Part shown: piece after piece, positions 23,829-39,867 of the stretch
Layout of the letters: each line of letters begins with the position of its first letter
How positions within the stretch are numbered: position 1 is the first letter of the stretch
Virus record (IMG/VR): IMGVR_UViG_3300046524_000585
Coordinates: 1 to 40,040 of that record
Direction: 5' to 3' (one strand)
Source: a virus
DNA: 40,040 bases
Made by a program: the position numbers and the translations under genes
Notes under the pieces: generated by a model
Databases searched by the model: none
Told to the model about the DNA's origin: nothing
Seen by the model: the letters and a program-made list of their open reading frames with translations, nothing else

Positions 23829-24560
23829 TCACCCCCGCCCCATCTCGCGGGCCAAGGCTCGGCGGAACAGCGGTTCGAACTCGGCAGCCGCCACGCGATC
23901 GGCCACCCCGTAGAAGTCGAAGCGCCGCCGATAGGTCGGACGTTTGACGAAGATCAGGATGGGGCGCGCTCCGCTGCCGACGCGTTGCCAGATGCCAAGC
24001 GGGCCGGTGCCGTTGCCTGGACGCCCGGCAAAGTAGTCAGGGGCATTGCGATTGCGTCGTTTACTGCGCGCAGTACGGTTGGCCATGAAGCCTGACACAC
24101 GTTCGGCAGCGCCGAGCGCTGATAGTATTTGGACGATCTGGCCCCGGCTGATATTGCCGTTGCCATCCATTCGGGCACGTCGCCCTGGCACGGCGTACAT
24201 GTCGGCAGGCATCAGGCCGTAGTGAATCAGCGCCTTCTCGAATCGCTTGTGCGGACGATTGCCGCCATCGATATGCACCGGCAAGTACTTTGATGCCGCT
24301 ACACCTGAGCTGGCTTCATCCTTGACCCACACCCGCGCAAACAATCGAGTGGCTGTCGCACTTCGCTTATAGATCGAATTCAACGTCCAACGGGTGGGAC
24401 GATCAAACACGCGGGCCATCTCGGCTTTCTCTGCGCTTTGCACCCGCTCGGCGGTGAACGTCAGTGCTTTGGCCGCAGCCGTTGGCACCTTGTCGCGAGC
24501 CAGGCCGCGCATCTCTCGCACGATCTTATCGATGTTCTCACGCATCTCCAGCCGCATCAT
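23829..24560 (-). CDS. Basic phage protein of unknown function upstream of terminase
   Basis: The 243-residue protein starts MMRLEMRENIDKIVREMR at 24560, where ATGA overlaps the stop of the holin gene; a longer reading is only an overlap shadow. The N-terminal half has an amphipathic helix and KALTFTAERVQSAEKAEM (near 30-47), a pattern seen in phage minor tail or head proteins that contact other structural proteins (gp10/HK97-like flavour). The C-terminal half is strongly basic (RTARSKRRNRNAPDYF). I cannot assign a family with confidence. It is cotranscribed with the holin and precedes the presumed cos site. Confidence 0.78.
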   Translation of the reverse strand: MMRLEMRENIDKIVREMRGLARDKVPTAAAKALTFTAERVQSAEKAEMARVFDRPTRWTLNSIYKRSATATRLFARVWVKDEASSGVAASKYLPVHIDGGNRPHKRFEKALIHYGLMPADMYAVPGRRARMDGNGNISRGQIVQILSALGAAERVSGFMANRTARSKRRNRNAPDYFAGRPGNGTGPLGIWQRVGSGARPILIFVKRPTYRRRFDFYGVADRVAAAEFEPLFRRALAREMGRG

Positions 24561-24904
24561 TGCCCTGGTTCGCCGCCAGTGGCTGACGACTCGCTGACGC
24601 CCAGCCGCTTGGCGACCCAGCGTTCGTACAACCCGATGGCGACATCGGCGCCGGCCATCGCAGTCAGGCAACCTAAGCTGCCCGCCGCCCAGATCGACAT
24701 GCCTGCAGCGATCATCAACATCATCGCCGAAACCCCGCAGGCGATGCAGGCACCCGACCGTAGTGCCAAGCGCCGCAACAAAACCCAGCCTCGCGCCCCA
24801 TCCTTGTCGGCCCGCCACATCTCGCCCGATACGCCTCCGACCAGGGCCAGGACGATCACTAACCAGATCGGCATTTCCGCAAGCGCCTGCTGCTCATTTG
24901 TCAT
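24557..24904 (-). CDS. Phage holin, superfamily III (LydA-like)
   Basis: The 115-residue protein has an N-terminal membrane segment (PIWLVIVLALVGGVSGEMW, about residues 12-30), a short charged loop (RADKDGARGW), then two hydrophobic stretches (about 47-63 and 66-85) and a charged tail. This fits the LydA/Phage_holin_3_3 type often found just before terminase in Pseudomonas phages. It would form the membrane lesion that lets the SleB-type endolysin reach the wall, though the endolysin gene is 22 kb away in the same operon. AAGGA before the ATG supports the start. Confidence 0.85.
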   Translation of the reverse strand: MTNEQQALAEMPIWLVIVLALVGGVSGEMWRADKDGARGWVLLRRLALRSGACIACGVSAMMLMIAAGMSIWAAGSLGCLTAMAGADVAIGLYERWVAKRLGVSESSATGGEPGQ

Positions 24905-24939
24905 GTTCTGTCCTTATGGGTTACGCCATCCGCCGGAAA

Positions 24940-24964
24940 AAGAAAACCCCGCCGAAGCGGGGTT
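24940..24964 (-). terminator. Intrinsic terminator in the late leader
   Basis: On the minus strand AACCCCGC-TTCG-GCGGGGTT is followed by TTCTTTTT, a strong intrinsic terminator 36 bases before the holin start. Late transcripts that start further upstream must pass it, which suggests antitermination. Confidence 0.85.
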
Positions 24965-25065
24965 AGGTGACCGGCGCAGGGAGGGCCGGGTGATGCTGCA
25001 CAGCACGTGCGAGGTCAGCGCCAAGGCGCAAATTCCATATCGTGGGGACTTTTTACCCGCCTCCG

Positions 25066-25093
25066 GAAAAACCGAAAAGAGGCTATTTTCGGT
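25066..25093 (-). terminator. Intrinsic terminator after the antiterminator-like gene
   Basis: On the minus strand ACCGAAAA (25093-25086) pairs with TTTTCGGT (25078-25071) around a 7-base loop, and TTTT follows. It would end the leftward early transcript. Confidence 0.72.
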
Positions 25094-25147
25094 AGATCAG
25101 CAAACGACATGAATACGACCGCAATACGACCACAATACGACAAAGCA
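25093..25147 (-). promoter_or_regulatory. P-box-like tandem repeats (PrtN activator site) ahead of the late operon
   Basis: Read on the minus strand, three adjacent 11-base units are ATTGTGGTCGT (25136-25126), ATTGCGGTCGT (25125-25115) and ATTCATGTCGT (25114-25104). Degenerate units flank them in the same 11-base phase. The units fit the pyocin P box, ATTGnn(n)GTnn(n), repeated four or five times, which PrtN binds in P. aeruginosa. The repeats begin 17 bases after the antiterminator-like gene and point at the holin and terminase genes. A PrtN-family protein is encoded at 32524-32766. The repeats are seen; binding is inferred. Confidence 0.7.
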
Positions 25148-25163
25148 CCCCGACGAACGGTAT

Positions 25164-25652
25164 TCAGCAGGTTCGCGTACGCTTGCTCGTCGAGGCTCTG
25201 GTCAGGTTGGTTTCAAGCGCACCGCTTCGACGGTCGAACCCTCGGGTTGTTGCGCTGCGAACCGTGAGGATTAACTGCACCTGCTGATGCAAACGATGAA
25301 CCCAATTCCGATACGTCCGGTCAGCGTCCTCTCGAAGTCCAAGCAACTGCAACTGAGAGCGAACGGAATATGGGGGCTGGGGCAGGTAGCGGTTGCGAGC
25401 CAACGCCGCGAGTTGGGCACCTTTCGCCGACTGCCGCTCAAGTTGCGCGAGGGCCGCCGCAATTTCGCTAGCAACATGATCCATACCGCCACCCGCCGCC
25501 ATCAACAGATCACGCGATCCAGGTGTGCCCCGCGGCGCGCTACCGCCCCACTGCATGATCGTCGCCATCGGGCTGCCCAGCCCGGCACCGTCGCCGACCT
25601 GGCAGTGCTGGTGCGCCCAATGCTGCATCAACGCTTCAATTTCATCGATCAT
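25164..25652 (-). CDS. Antitermination protein Q-like late regulator
   Basis: The 162-residue protein starts MIDEIEALMQHWAHQHC at 25652 with GAAGGG upstream. It shows the pattern of small Q-like antiterminators: an N-terminal helix with Trp, then GLGSPMATIMQWGG and APRGTPGSRD (near 27-50), a central region with AAALAQLER, LAALARNRYLPQPPYSVRSQLQLLGL (about 90-115) and a closing RTYRNWVHRLHQQ that looks like the DNA recognition helix region. The gene is last in the leftward early operon and directly precedes the late leader with its two terminators, exactly the place of lambda Q. The last 30 residues are basic and not recognisable. The assignment is by pattern and position. Confidence 0.72.
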   Translation of the reverse strand: MIDEIEALMQHWAHQHCQVGDGAGLGSPMATIMQWGGSAPRGTPGSRDLLMAAGGGMDHVASEIAAALAQLERQSAKGAQLAALARNRYLPQPPYSVRSQLQLLGLREDADRTYRNWVHRLHQQVQLILTVRSATTRGFDRRSGALETNLTRASTSKRTRTC

Positions 25653-25983
25653 CGCCCTTCCCCCCGAAAAAACGAGCCCAACACAAAAAACACCACACCC
25701 AACACAAACCCTACACAAATAAAAACTATATAAATCAGTCGTTTAAGTTGATTTGTGTAAAGTGTGTAGGGTGTGCAGGCTTTTTCGGGTGTCGCATGAC
25801 CTTTTTTTTCGTTCACATGCGCTGACTGCAAATAAACCGCATGTTCATACGCCTGCGCGCACGATAACCCTGCACACCCAACACGACGCCCTAGAACGGG
25901 CTGAATTCGCGGGTTTAGTGTGTGTTGGGCCGAAAAACATAACCCTGCACAACCCTGCACACCTTGCACACATCCGAGCGCAA
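25653..25983. repeat. Non-coding repeat region after the replication gene; possible origin or regulatory repeats
   Basis: These 331 bases hold no gene that I trust. The motif AACCCTGCAC occurs at 25866-25875, 25941-25950 and 25951-25960, followed by ACCTTGCACA at 25961-25970. Related copies occur as AACCCTACAC (25707-25716) and inverted as GTGTAGGGTGTGCAGG (25764-25779). ACACCCAACAC and GTGTGTTGGG repeat in both orientations. A very AT-rich stretch with TATATA lies at 25720-25735. Iterons next to an AT-rich segment beside a primase-helicase gene suggest a replication origin, but a regulatory array is equally possible. Confidence 0.5.
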
Positions 25984-29764: not shown

Positions 29765-29793
29765 AGATTAGCAATTGCTAATCAACACAGCAA
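29765..29793 (-). promoter_or_regulatory. Leftward early promoter (PR-like)
   Basis: On the minus strand TTGCTG (29793-29788) and TAATCT (29770-29765) are separated by 17 bases. The -10 element overlaps operator 1. The same design, a TTGC box 17 bases from a TAAT-T box within an operator, is seen at the rightward promoter near 31040. Confidence 0.55.
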
Positions 29794-29821: not shown

Positions 29822-29841
29822 CGCCAAGCGATCATTCAGAA

Positions 29842-30564
29842 ATGGATATTTACGAACAGCGAATCAGTGCCTTGCGCAAAGCTATGGCGGGGCTGAGCCA
29901 GAAGGATTTCGCCAACCAATTTGGGTTGGACGCATCCTATTTGTCGCAGCTTTTGAATGGGCACCGAAAGCTCGGAGAAAAGGCCGCGACCACGTTAGAA
30001 ATCAAAATAAACTTACCCCCCGGGACGTTAGTGGCACCGGAACCGCAAGGCGAAGCGGAACATTCAGCGACGAAAAGCGTTAGCAATGTAGTAGCCATCG
30101 GCACGAAAAAAGTGATGGAGGTATTGGGGTTTGTCACCATCCCACACCTCAATGTAGCCGCCTCAATGGGCTCAGGCCGGGTGCCTCCCATGGATCATCA
30201 AGTCGAAGTAATTCGCGAGATAACCGTCCACCTCGACTGGCTGAAAACTCAAGGACTGGCTTACTCCGGTATTGAGAACTTGGCCATCATCACCGGTGAC
30301 GGCGACAGCATGGAGGGGACCTTCCGTAACGGAGACTCACTTCTAGTAGATCGTGGAATCAGTGAGATAAGGACCGACGCGATCTACGTTTTTACGTTAG
30401 ATGGAGATCTGTTCATTAAACGTCTTCAACGTCTCACTGGCGGTGCGCTGCGTATGATCTCGGATAATCCGATCTACCCTGCCATCATGATCGAGGGTGC
30501 GGACCTGGAGAAGGTTCATATCCAAGCGCGGGTTTTGCTGGTGTGGAATGCCAGAAAACTGTGA
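29842..30564 (+). CDS. S24 (LexA/CI-type) prophage repressor
   Basis: The 240-residue protein keeps the prophage silent. I use the ATG at 29842 (MDIYEQRISALRKAMAG); a TTG at 29815 would lie inside an operator. Residues 17-42 (LSQKDFANQFGLDASYLSQLLNG) are the HTH. The C-terminal S24 peptidase domain shows GDSMEGTFRNGD with catalytic S156 and FIKRL with K193, 37 residues apart as in the family. The cleavage region has AASMGSG rather than an Ala-Gly pair; similar forms occur in other Pseudomonas repressors. The circuit resembles PrtR of pyocins. The ATG lacks a clear ribosome site, which is common for repressor maintenance transcripts. Confidence 0.93.
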   Translation: MDIYEQRISALRKAMAGLSQKDFANQFGLDASYLSQLLNGHRKLGEKAATTLEIKINLPPGTLVAPEPQGEAEHSATKSVSNVVAIGTKKVMEVLGFVTIPHLNVAASMGSGRVPPMDHQVEVIREITVHLDWLKTQGLAYSGIENLAIITGDGDSMEGTFRNGDSLLVDRGISEIRTDAIYVFTLDGDLFIKRLQRLTGGALRMISDNPIYPAIMIEGADLEKVHIQARVLLVWNARKL

Positions 30565-30711: not shown

Positions 30712-30966
30712 ATGGCAAAACCAGCGAGAAAGCCCCCTACTCCCGTCTCATCAATCGAGATCCTTGGGGCACGCCTTCAGAAAATCATCAATTCGCCTCT
30801 CGCCCAAAAGGCTCAAGCCGCGATAATCAGTAAAGACGTCACTGAGTCACAGGATGATTGGGACCAGATCATTGAGGCCATTACCCAAACCGATGGCGTG
30901 TACGTAGATTTTCAGGACGATGGAAAAGTGCGCGTGTATTGGGATGTACCCGACAAAAATGATTAG
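30712..30966 (+). CDS. DUF1654 family protein, probably SOS-controlled
   Basis: The 84-residue protein starts MAKPARKPPTPVSSIEILG at 30712 with AAGGAG upstream; the open frame extends further upstream but without a ribosome site. ILGARLQKIINSPLAQKAQAAI followed by DDWDQIIEAI and a closing RVYWDVPD is the pattern of DUF1654, a family common in Pseudomonas genomes near prophages. No function is established. It is a single-gene unit with its own LexA box and terminator, located between the repressor and the rightward early operon. The position recalls SOS-induced antirepressor genes that inactivate prophage repressors; this is a guess. Confidence 0.87.
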   Translation: MAKPARKPPTPVSSIEILGARLQKIINSPLAQKAQAAIISKDVTESQDDWDQIIEAITQTDGVYVDFQDDGKVRVYWDVPDKND

Positions 30967-31013: not shown

Positions 31014-31055
31014 TTAGCATCTGCTATTGCATGTTTATTTAGCTGTTGCTAATTT
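31014..31055 (+). promoter_or_regulatory. Rightward early promoter with two repressor operators (PL-like)
   Basis: TTAGCATCTGCTAT (31014-31027) and TTAGCTGTTGCTAA (31039-31052) match the switch operators, with centres 25 bp apart. A promoter fits between and over them: TTGCAT (31027-31032), 17 bases, TAATTT (31050-31055). The first gene starts at 31091. The lytic early operon is therefore directly under repressor control. Confidence 0.72.
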
Positions 31056-31880: not shown

Positions 31881-32156
31881 ATGAACCGCACCCTGGATCA
31901 AACGGCCGCTGTACTCGGCCTCAAGCCACGCGCCTTCCGCACCAGGTTGCGGGAACTGCGCATCCTGACCAGTGATGGTGACCTGGCCAGCCACCACCGC
32001 GACCGCGGCTATTTGTTCTCAGACCCTCGTAGCGTCCAGATCGGAAAGACCAACCGCTACAGGCACTACGCCGTAGTGATGGTGAAGGAGTCTGGCGTGG
32101 AATGGCTGGCAAAAAAACTGAACATCACCATCACGCACAAGGACGCCGCAGCATGA
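31881..32156 (+). CDS. KilAC-domain protein (antirepressor C-terminal domain alone)
   Basis: The 91-residue protein starts MNRTLDQTAAVLGLKPRAF with GAGG upstream. TLDQTAAVLGLKPRAFRTRLRELRIL is the helical start of the KilAC (ANT C-terminal) domain, followed by YLFSDPRSVQ and a winged end. The usual N-terminal Bro or Rha domain is missing, so this is a stand-alone DNA-binding unit. It may serve as antirepressor or replication regulator. Overlaps the next gene by 4 bases. Confidence 0.84.
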   Translation: MNRTLDQTAAVLGLKPRAFRTRLRELRILTSDGDLASHHRDRGYLFSDPRSVQIGKTNRYRHYAVVMVKESGVEWLAKKLNITITHKDAAA

Positions 32157-32527
32157 GCCAGAACGCCATTACCCAAGCCATCGGTGCACTGAAGCTGATC
32201 CCGATGTTTCTGAACCATCCAACCGTCATTAGCCGCGCCACGCTGATTGGCGCATCCGCCGAAGCGGTTCAGTTGCTGGAAACTTTGCCTACAGTCAGCG
32301 CGGAACTGGCCGAGGTATTTCGCTGCGTCGACGCCGTGATCGGCGAAGGCCAGGTCGCCTACGTGACACCGGTCAAGTGCCCGGAATACCCATACGGTGC
32401 CGTCGTCGCAGACGCCAAGGGCAACGTCTTGGCAGCGGCCAAGGGCAAGAGCAAAGAAGGTCTCGCCGAGCTGATCCGCCTCAAGCTGGTGCCCCAAAAG
32501 GAGGGGCATGGGGAGGAATCCGCGTGA
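32153..32527 (+). CDS. Early operon protein, unknown
   Basis: The 124-residue protein starts MSQNAITQAIGALKLIPMF at 32153 (ATGA overlap with the preceding stop). A helical N-terminal part is followed by a beta-rich part (GQVAYVTPVKCPEYPYGAVV) and a Lys-rich helical end. I do not recognise a family. The stop overlaps the GTG start of the PrtN-like gene. Confidence 0.78.
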   Translation: MSQNAITQAIGALKLIPMFLNHPTVISRATLIGASAEAVQLLETLPTVSAELAEVFRCVDAVIGEGQVAYVTPVKCPEYPYGAVVADAKGNVLAAAKGKSKEGLAELIRLKLVPQKEGHGEESA

Positions 32528-32766
32528 GCGACACAATTAATCAGTTGCGTGAAGAGTGGTCGACCCCCTGCCCAACTCTTGCCGCTATTCGCCAACGCTA
32601 CTTCACGCACATAGCGAGCGACCGATACCTGCTACGGAAGATCAGCGCCGGGCGCATCAAGTTGAAAGTAACCCGCCTGGGTGGCTCTGCCAAAGGTACG
32701 CCAGTCGTTTACCTGCACGACCTTGCCGACTACCTCGACGCCCAGGCGACGAAACAAGCGGCTTGA
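32524..32766 (+). CDS. Pyocin activator PrtN-like transcription factor
   Basis: The 80-residue protein starts with GTG at 32524, overlapping the preceding stop as GTGA. ASDRYLLRKISAGRIKLKV (near 31-49) and VVYLHDLADYLDAQATKQ (60-77) match the PrtN family: a domain that positions DNA-binding basic residues, then the DLA-YLD helix. PrtN of P. aeruginosa activates pyocin genes through the P box and is itself repressed by PrtR. Here the gene is inside the repressor-controlled early operon and P-box-like repeats stand before the late operon, so it is the likely late activator. Confidence 0.83.
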   Translation: MSDTINQLREEWSTPCPTLAAIRQRYFTHIASDRYLLRKISAGRIKLKVTRLGGSAKGTPVVYLHDLADYLDAQATKQAA

Positions 32767-37531: not shown

Positions 37532-37743
37532 GCGCAGCAGAGAAACTTGACTTCCACATCACACCGGGCGCCTGGTTCCGCCAGGATCTGCTGTACCCAG
37601 TCTTCGGCCTAAGCACCGAAGCGGTTCGCAAATACCGCACCCGGGGCCTGTGGCTTGAGGGCAAGCACTGGCGTTACGACCCAGCCAACGTGATCGTCTA
37701 CAACCGCGCGGCCATTGAGCGCTGGATGGAAGGGAAACCATGA
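37528..37743 (+). CDS. Excisionase-like protein
   Basis: The 71-residue protein starts MSAAEKLDFHITPGAWFRQD at 37528. TPGAWFRQDLLYPVFGLSTEAVRKYRTRGLW is the winged-helix region of the phage excisionase family (Exc), followed by EGKHWRYDPANVIVYNRAAIERWMEGK with the Trp-rich wing. It should direct integrase toward excision. Coupled to integrase by ATGA (37740-37743) and to the previous gene by ATGA (37528-37531). Confidence 0.88.
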   Translation: MSAAEKLDFHITPGAWFRQDLLYPVFGLSTEAVRKYRTRGLWLEGKHWRYDPANVIVYNRAAIERWMEGKP

Positions 37744-38957
37744 TCGACAAGATGCCGACCGGCGTTGAGATGAATGGCAAGCAGCTACGTATCTGGTTCA
37801 TCTTTAACGGCCAACGGTGCCGGGAACCCCTGGAAGGGATCTCGAAAGTCAACAAGGCCGCAATCGCCTATGCCGACAACAAGCGCCGCACCATCCTGGC
37901 GGAAATTAAAGAGGGCCGCTTCGACTACGCGGCCCACTTTCCGAACTCGCCTAGGGCTTCCATGTTCACGGGGACTGGCGGTCCTTCGCTAAAGCGAACT
38001 GTGAAGGAAGGCATTGATCGCTGGCTGGAGGTTCAACGCGCGCTCAAAGCATCGAGCACCGTCGTCAACTACGTCAGCAAGGCTGTGCACGTCGAGAAGA
38101 AATTCGGCAAGCGTCGGATCGTCGACATCAGCAAGAGCGACATTGAGTTGTTTCAAGCGCAACTGCTCAAGCAAGGCCTGGCCCCGAAGACAGTGAACGA
38201 CATTTTCACCGTCGTCCGTGGGGTCTGGGCTGATGCCTTCGGCGACGGCATCCTGAAAGCCAACCCGCTCGACCGGATCAGTAACGTCGGATCGGACGTC
38301 GACCTGGAGCATGCCGACCCCTTTAGTCGCATTGAGATCGAGTTGATCGGCAAAGCGGATCCCGAACGGCGAGCCGACACCCGGATGATTGAGTTCAACT
38401 GCTGGGCCGGACTGTCCCTGTCCGAGCTCATCGGGCTCGCCGTTGAAGATGTAGATCTTGAAGCCGGCCTGGTACACGTCCGTCGGGCATTGGTCGTCGG
38501 CGAATTCAAAGTACCCAAAGAACGCTCCAGGGTCCGAGTCGTCGAGCTGATAGACCCAGCCCTCGATCTGATGCGGGAGATAGTTGCCGCTGCCAAGGAA
38601 GCAGTAGCCGAAGAGATCACCGTTATCCAACGCGACAACATCACTTCCAAGAAGGTGAAAGTCAGGTTTCTTTTCCGCAGTTCGACCAGTGGATTGCTCT
38701 GGAGTGGCAAGACATTGAGCAACTGGTTTACCGCCCATCTGAAAAAAGCAGAGGTCCGCCATCGCGGCGCGAACCAATGTCGCCACACCTTTGCCAGCCA
38801 AATGCTGTCGAGTTATGTACCGGTCGAATGGGTGGCCAGGCAACTGGGGCATGCCGACACAACGATGGTCAGAAAGCATTACGGGAGATGGATACCGAAG
38901 GACACCAAGAGCATGGCAGGTATCGTGTCGAAAATGTTGGGTTTTAGAACCGACTGA
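37740..38957 (+). CDS. int: Tyrosine integrase (DUF3596 arm domain)
   Basis: The 405-residue protein has an N-terminal arm-binding domain of the DUF3596 type (residues 1-75), a core-binding SAM-like domain (about 85-180) and a catalytic domain. R348 (CRHTFASQ), H371 (LGHAD) and nucleophile Y381 (HYGRW) are present, and K260 is the likely active-site Lys. The usual first catalytic Arg in TGLR-x-SEL is replaced: the sequence is CWAGLSLSELIGL with S226 at that place. The first box II His is N345. The gene ends 820 bases before the tRNA-Ser gene, its probable target. Confidence 0.93.
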   Translation: MIDKMPTGVEMNGKQLRIWFIFNGQRCREPLEGISKVNKAAIAYADNKRRTILAEIKEGRFDYAAHFPNSPRASMFTGTGGPSLKRTVKEGIDRWLEVQRALKASSTVVNYVSKAVHVEKKFGKRRIVDISKSDIELFQAQLLKQGLAPKTVNDIFTVVRGVWADAFGDGILKANPLDRISNVGSDVDLEHADPFSRIEIELIGKADPERRADTRMIEFNCWAGLSLSELIGLAVEDVDLEAGLVHVRRALVVGEFKVPKERSRVRVVELIDPALDLMREIVAAAKEAVAEEITVIQRDNITSKKVKVRFLFRSSTSGLLWSGKTLSNWFTAHLKKAEVRHRGANQCRHTFASQMLSSYVPVEWVARQLGHADTTMVRKHYGRWIPKDTKSMAGIVSKMLGFRTD

Positions 38958-39777: not shown

Positions 39778-39867
39778 TGGCGGAGAGATAGGGATTCGAA
39801 CCCTAGGTACCGGTGAAGGTACAACGGATTTCGAATCCGTCCCATTCGGCCACTCTGGCATCTCTCC
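39778..39867 (-). tRNA. tRNA-Ser (anticodon CGA)
   Basis: The 90-base gene folds as a serine tRNA with long variable arm: acceptor arms GGAGAGA and TCTCTCC, discriminator G and encoded CCA (39778-39781), T-loop GGTTCGAATCC, and anticodon stem ACGGA/TCCGT with loop TTCGAAA, anticodon CGA (39831-39833), reading UCG. The 3' end points toward the prophage, so it is the probable integration target and still complete. Confidence 0.97.

Follow-up and report, generated by a model that had tools for sequence, protein, structure and literature searches.

What is the role of an array of 11-bp tandem repeats that lies directly in front of the late genes of a lambda-like Pseudomonas prophage? The window, i.e., the whole stretch of 40,040 nucleotides that was analyzed, is such a prophage, and the prophage is complete, with head, terminase and integrase genes all present. 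The initial annotation of this DNA took the repeats for a P box, the element of ATTGnn(n)GTnn(n) boxes of Pseudomonas aeruginosa PrtN (PMC4905994), and proposed that the phage repressor, a PrtN-like protein and the P box together switch on the late genes. Read leftward, the window presents first the primase gene and then the PHROG 4300 gene; the array comes next, followed by a hairpin, by the conserved core and by a terminator. Beyond these lie the late genes, of which the first is holin-like and later ones encode terminase, portal, protease and tape measure proteins. The features first needed are the following:

25104 to 25136, minus strand: P-box-like array of three clear 11-bp boxes (place conserved in 108 loci; word tracks PrtN)
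25137 to 25147, minus strand: degenerate upstream unit TGCTTTGTCGT, whose TTTGTCGT tail is conserved in ATTG-type relatives
24557 to 24904, minus strand: first late gene, holin-like (PHROG 3897; weak match to the holin PHROG 785)
37740 to 38957: integrase, near a tRNA-Ser gene

From 25147 to 25093 the minus strand reads TGCTTTGTCGT / ATTGTGGTCGT / ATTGCGGTCGT / ATTCATGTCGT / TTGCTGATCTA in exact 11-bp register. The three clear units (ATTGTGGTCGT at 25136-25126, ATTGCGGTCGT at 25125-25115 and ATTCATGTCGT at 25114-25104) are flanked by degenerate units on both sides and lie at about -61 to -93 relative to the predicted start. Two of them present the word ATTGnnGTCGT and the third, ATTCATGTCGT, has ATTC. 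The array therefore has the form of a P box, i.e., tandem ATTGnn(n)GTnn(n) units 10-11 bp apart upstream of a target, with two full boxes, one box with ATTC and two degenerate boxes in steps of exactly 11 bp; the P boxes of the PrtN regulon usually number four or five. The exact register reported by the initial annotation was confirmed: the three-unit score is 26 out of 27, relative to a best score of 19 in 60 shuffled windows and of 16 at independent sites of the window, and the two-unit pattern with up to three mismatches yielded 2 matches when 0.03 were expected. The period of 11 was also detected by Tandem Repeats Finder.

The presumed regulators are encoded on the other strand:

32524 to 32766, plus strand: PrtN-family protein of 80 amino acids, a winged helix and predicted late activator (PF11112)
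29839 to 30564, plus strand: S24 (LexA-like) phage repressor (Pfam PF00717, 1.1e-19)
29768 to 29781: perfect operator palindrome TTAGCAATTGCTAA, between the repressor gene and a divergent Cro-like gene
31014 to 31052, plus strand: two operator-like palindromes, TTAGCATCTGCTAT and TTAGCTGTTGCTAA, ahead of the rightward operon to which the PrtN gene belongs

The PrtN gene starts with GTG at 32524, and its product matches PF11112 (E = 7.5e-24; 84.1 bits against a cut-off of 24.2) over residues 4-77 and profile positions 1-73/74, which confirms its earlier identification as PrtN-like. The claim that its operon lies behind S24 repressor operators was likewise upheld by the S24 gene and the operator-like palindromes at 31014-31052, so that by sequence the activator gene is placed under an S24 repressor. 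The palindrome pattern TTAGCnnTTGCTAA has 7 matches in the window and at most 4 in shuffles. In the PrtN model (pLDDT 85), residues 33-41 form a helix and residues 50-61 a wing hairpin. Sequence searches of the PDB with PrtN, using single and profile queries, returned nothing convincing, and the Foldseek matches of both the PrtN and the PHROG 4300 models all had E > 0.1. The best-probability fold match of PrtN is the DNA-binding protein 4lhf of phage P2 (probability 0.90, E = 0.17), which we take to be P2 Cox.

The rightward operon contains a KilAC-like gene, the PrtN gene and others. The KilAC-like protein (31881-32156, PHROG 5689) is a stand-alone one, and its gene is kept upstream of PrtN, in the same operon, in nearly all relatives. 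A gene for a DUF1654 protein (30712-30966) separates the repressor gene from the operators of the PrtN operon, and a tailocin locus (L126) likewise has a small open reading frame between PrtR and PrtN. Just past the integrase, a tRNA-Ser(CGA) gene at 39778-39867 is a candidate attachment site. Clustered GTGTTGGGT-like repeats in both orientations were observed at 25660-25960, between the primase and PHROG 4300 genes. We considered these repeats as another PrtN site and dropped this candidate: they are present, beside the primase, in nearly all relatives irrespective of the PrtN clade, and are probably replication iterons for the primase-helicase.

We then compared 64 viral loci encoding PrtN relatives, 40 pattern hits, 66 loci from isolate genomes and several sequenced phages. 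The distinct related loci number 108 and consist of prophages, phages and tailocins of the P. syringae group. Pattern hits such as L069, L073, L074, L076 and L101 are chance-like and the module is absent from them; on reading L101, both the PrtN gene and the PHROG 4300 gene were found to be missing. In the relatives, the primase is again followed by PHROG 4300, and the array, hairpin, core, terminator and late genes come after it in this order. An 11-bp tandem array is nearly always found at this same position before the late genes, with a self-identity of 0.65 at lag 11 against about 0.22 at other lags, and in some relatives it overlaps the 3' end of the PHROG 4300 gene. Where the array is of the ATTG type, its last clear unit lies 47 bp from GGTAmAAA, or 58 bp where the final unit is degenerate, and these two spacings differ by exactly one 11-bp unit.

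The word of the array differs between loci, and it does so with PrtN. Across about 60 syntenic viral loci and an independent set of isolate genomes, PrtN proteins with HI[STA]SDRYL[LM]R[RK]I are paired with RTT[GC]nnGTC-type boxes (RTT[GC]nnGTCGT-like), those with HI[RKQ]TDR..EIK with GTCAAAGTTGC boxes, and those with HIG[ST]DRR with GCnACATTG boxes (putida/fulva group). Tailocin PrtN proteins with HLS[NS]DRNLLRKIN are paired with GTTGAACTC-type boxes (trp-locus tailocins of the P. syringae group), and still other words are found in phages Lodos, Turba and PG1. One exception is locus L122, which combines an ATTG-type recognition helix with GTCGAAGTCGT boxes. The initial annotation had suggested looking for co-occurrence of the repeats and prtN-like genes in related prophages, and this expectation was borne out: the array occupies the same place in the 108 loci and its word follows the PrtN clade.

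This association was quantified with partial Mantel correlations. The array word follows PrtN, although some 7 kb normally separate the array from the PrtN gene, and follows the adjacent PHROG 4300 gene weakly (respectively, 0.67 and 0.20; 108 loci). With PHROG 4300, the primase and the KilAC-like gene controlled, the array-PrtN correlation is 0.54 across 82 loci (1 in 1001, a significance that is overstated for related sequences); at the same loci the array-PHROG 4300 correlation is 0.17 with the primase and the KilAC-like gene also controlled. The control genes themselves are close to zero against the array (primase, 0.04; KilAC-like gene, 0.05). The spacer between the likely -35 and -10 behaves in the opposite manner and tracks PHROG 4300 (partial r of 0.75/0.81) rather than PrtN (-0.07/0.04). 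On the trees, spacer type changes once along PHROG 4300, 12 times along PrtN and 14 times along the primase, and array type, as a coarse three-type label, changes 5 times along PrtN and 7 times along both PHROG 4300 and the primase, a small margin that is partly due to the weak tree given by an 80-residue PrtN. The spacer and the PHROG 4300 gene are near neighbors and linkage aids that pair; the array sits between the two and yet shares their match weakly. The evidential weight lies in this double dissociation and the controls rather than in the Mantel probabilities. The word is best predicted by 12 columns of PrtN, of which 11 fall within residues 31-41 and 53-59 (chance, 3e-8), the other being residue 10. 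The word-discriminating residues are thus concentrated in the predicted recognition helix and wing of the PrtN model.

The array is preceded by the PHROG 4300 gene and followed by the predicted parts of the late promoter and its leader:

25164 to 25652, minus strand: PHROG 4300 protein of 162 amino acids, predicted late antiterminator (distant Phage_antitermQ relative)
25071 to 25093, minus strand: hairpin ACCGAAAA-tagcctc-TTTTCGGT followed by TTTT, a terminator-like end of the early transcript (fold; 96/108 loci)
25056 to 25070, minus strand: -35/-10 spacer, predicted PHROG 4300 binding element (tracks PHROG 4300, not PrtN)
25050 to 25055, minus strand: predicted -10, TAAAAA, inside the invariant GGTA[AC]AAAG (consensus of 108 loci; role inferred)
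25036 to 25041, minus strand: GATATG, a conserved block just past the predicted start (GAT[AC]T[GC] in 104/108 loci)
24938 to 24964, minus strand: intrinsic terminator in the late leader, AACCCCGCTTCGGCGGGGTT TTCTTTTT (terminator scan, fold)

A consensus scan of this DNA for a standard sigma-70 promoter found none, as expected for an activator-dependent promoter. The 3' arm of the hairpin probably overlaps a weak -35. By analogy with lambda pR' and alpB (PMC7969949, PMC9371919), TAAAAA would serve as the -10, and GATATG is a possible -10-like pause element. A terminator-like stem was detected in all of the 108 leaders, 87-95 nt downstream of the core (5-95% range). The predicted folds of the leader and of the hairpin at 25071-25093 are no better than those of shuffles.

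The initial annotation described the gene before the array as antiterminator-like. Its position is indeed that of a Q gene; its sequence, however, has no direct Pfam match and belongs to PHROG 4300, which is annotated as "unknown function". When PHROG 4300 was aligned to Phage_antitermQ (PF06530) of Pseudomonas, hhalign returned E = 4.1e-5 (probability 70), and the match was weaker with the more diverse alignment A6 (E = 0.0016, probability 16). No convincing PDB match was obtained with single or profile sequence queries. The structural model is weakly sigma-region-4-like in its C-terminal half, and Foldseek did not retrieve 21Q or AlpA with it. Among 398 Pseudomonadaceae genomes, PHROG 4300 was found in 67, and all 67 also carry PF11112, which occurs in 146 of the 398 (P = 3e-35). 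PHROG 4300 is probably a distant relative of Q antiterminators and is predicted to act as a late antiterminator.

The same parts were found at pyocin loci. At 15 trpE-linked Pseudomonas loci with PrtN next to trpE, an adjacency as in PA0609-PA0610 (gene order from PMC8262887), a PHROG 4300-type protein is present; the profile matched one scanned locus at 4.7e-40. In their late promoters, ATTG units resembling the P box recur every 10-11 bp, and the core GGTA[AC]AAAGT (GGTAAAAAGT) is present, as in the phage loci. The pyocin PrtN proteins compared here are the trpE-linked PrtN of Pseudomonas genomes other than P. aeruginosa PAO1; their recognition-helix letters differ from those of phage PrtN, and their boxes are ATTGnnnGTnn-like, against ATTGnnGTCGT in the window. 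The cross-talk with host pyocins that the initial annotation thought possible is neither favored nor contradicted by these comparisons. At the trp-locus tailocins of the P. syringae group, PrtN, PrtR, PHROG 4300, the array and the core all lie within about 2 kb. The initial annotation saw in this phage a hybrid of pyocin and lambda logic. Parts of both kinds are combined here, but they were not mixed in this phage: the trpE-linked loci carry PHROG 4300, the P-box array and the core promoter, which indicates one shared module. As R-pyocin/tailocin loci of Pseudomonas carry this module, pyocin control by PrtN would most simply represent domesticated phage late control.

A review reported plant-associated Pseudomonas tailocins with prtR in which no prtN was found (PMC10598620). 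Contrary to this review, trpE-linked tailocins of the P. syringae group carry a PrtN of the phage late class (L125, L126, L129, L135, L138, L139, L140, L142, L144, L147 and L149). One contig of P. caricapapayae ICMP 2855 harbors both a tailocin PrtN (L125) and a second, phage-type PrtN (L119) about 20 kb apart. PF11112 comprises at least three classes in Pseudomonas: (a) the phage/tailocin late type, (b) a prophage-end type and (c) the trpE-linked pyocin type; L177, L222, L252 and L291-L370 are examples of PF11112 classes. The class near prophage ends is a probable excision factor, and a search for ATTG arrays at class (b) loci found none. PHROG 1300 carries an excisionase label and takes in late-type PrtN.

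Taken together, our results strongly support that PrtN acts on the late genes through the P-box-like array and under the S24 repressor, as initially proposed, with the array word tracking PrtN in both phages and tailocins. We infer binding, activation, antitermination and their timing from the observed arrangement as follows. Upon induction, cleavage of the S24 repressor would allow the rightward early operon to produce PrtN. PrtN monomers would bind head to tail, each occupying one 11-bp box and all lying on the same side of the DNA, at positions from about -60 to -95; the array would be the binding site of the phage's own PrtN and form the upstream activator region of the late promoter. Bound PrtN would recruit RNA polymerase to a weak promoter with a poor -35 and TAAAAA as -10. 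Expressed from the early left operon, the PHROG 4300 protein would bind the -35/-10 spacer and load onto the polymerase in a Q-like manner, allowing the polymerase to read through the leader terminator and to transcribe the holin, terminase, head and tail genes. Such a late switch with two keys, shared with pyocins, is in our view very probably the correct explanation.

Several other explanations were considered. The array could be where the antiterminator encoded next to it, PHROG 4300, loads onto the DNA; it would then be a Q-binding element of several units, without any involvement of PrtN. The array does directly follow the 3' end of that gene, or overlaps it in relatives, a terminator lies downstream, and a weak residual array-PHROG 4300 correlation (0.17-0.20) persists; yet the array word tracks PrtN, it is the spacer that tracks PHROG 4300, and known Q and AlpA elements sit in the spacer (PMC7969949, PMC9371919), which makes this reading improbable. 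The host pyocin PrtN might instead be the main ligand of the array, such that the phage follows host pyocin induction. Although the boxes fit the known P box (PMC4905994) and the phage and trpE-linked core promoters are alike, the word follows the clade of the phage's own PrtN and includes non-ATTG words outside the P-box consensus, and we regard this possibility as very improbable. Linked inheritance of phage lineages could also match array to PrtN without functional contact, since all loci are related and the tree margin with the coarse label is small. This is the least probable of the alternatives: the physically closer gene matches worse, controlling for PrtN leaves no contribution of the primase or the KilAC-like gene, and the informative residues cluster on the DNA-reading surface.

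PrtN could, finally, serve the phage as its excisionase (recombination directionality factor), in which case the array would be a remnant or a site of some unrelated kind. PHROG 1300 is labelled as excisionase, RdfN of dusA islands belongs to PF11112 and is required for excision (PMC8409611), 4lhf has the best probability among the fold matches, and another PF11112 class is found near prophage ends. However, a different gene of the window (DUF1233/PHROG 539) is excisionase-like and abuts the integrase on its upstream side. An excisionase gene would be expected next to the integrase or the att site; the PrtN gene is about 5 kb from the integrase, the array is about 13 kb from it, and array and PrtN co-vary. 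An exclusive role in excision thus appears quite improbable, and a PrtN with a double role, in excision and in late activation, is conceivable.

Returning to the switch operated by PrtN and PHROG 4300, we lean towards a broader view in which it is in general use as a late switch, by the temperate phages of Pseudomonas as well as by R-pyocin/tailocin loci. The PHROG 4300 proteins, among them the one encoded at the PA0613 position of the pyocin locus, would then be unrecognized Q-type antiterminators, pyocin production would involve antitermination, and the box specificities of PrtN would have evolved through residues 31-41 and 53-59. PrtN-like genes in prophages were noted earlier (PMC2647930), and we found no open-licence paper linking them to a late promoter. 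Our analysis proposes a function for a phage gene that is widespread and is often annotated as excisionase or hypothetical. It also suggests what PHROG 4300 likely does and where pyocin control came from, in that a bacterial weapon may have retained a phage late switch. It makes directly testable whether pyocin release needs antitermination besides PrtN and whether phage and host PrtN cross-activate, and it provides a natural set of matched PrtN-box pairs for working out PrtN specificity.

This proposed switch resembles several known systems in part. RdfN of dusA islands (PMC8409611) and P2 Cox are small winged-helix DNA binders like PrtN, RdfN sharing PF11112 and the P2 protein 4lhf a fold resemblance; these proteins act at att sites, and late-gene activation is not shown in the islands. 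AlpA and the Q proteins of lambda and 21 (PMC7969949, PMC9371919) have an element in the -35/-10 spacer, a conserved block just past the start and a terminator in the leader, as predicted here. No upstream activator array is described for them, and PHROG 4300 is only distantly related to PF06530. GafY and GafZ of the Caulobacter gene transfer agent (PMC11150451) are two keys to one late-type promoter with a degenerate -35, as proposed here: GafY binds upstream and the element of the antiterminator GafZ lies between -35 and -10, a layout similar to the one proposed. That system requires IHF, and no tandem 11-bp array is described for it. The R-, F- and S-pyocins of P. aeruginosa, controlled by PrtR, PrtN and the P box (Matsui 1993; PMC4905994, PMC8609362), differ in that head, terminase and integrase genes make the window a complete prophage, that its box word is ATTGnnGTCGT in strict 11-bp steps, and that phage PrtN forms a class separate from the trpE-linked pyocin class. 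Both have in common a PF11112 protein, a known or predicted activator, under an S24 repressor and tandem boxes of 10-11 bp, and in both the known or predicted targets are lysis and tail genes.
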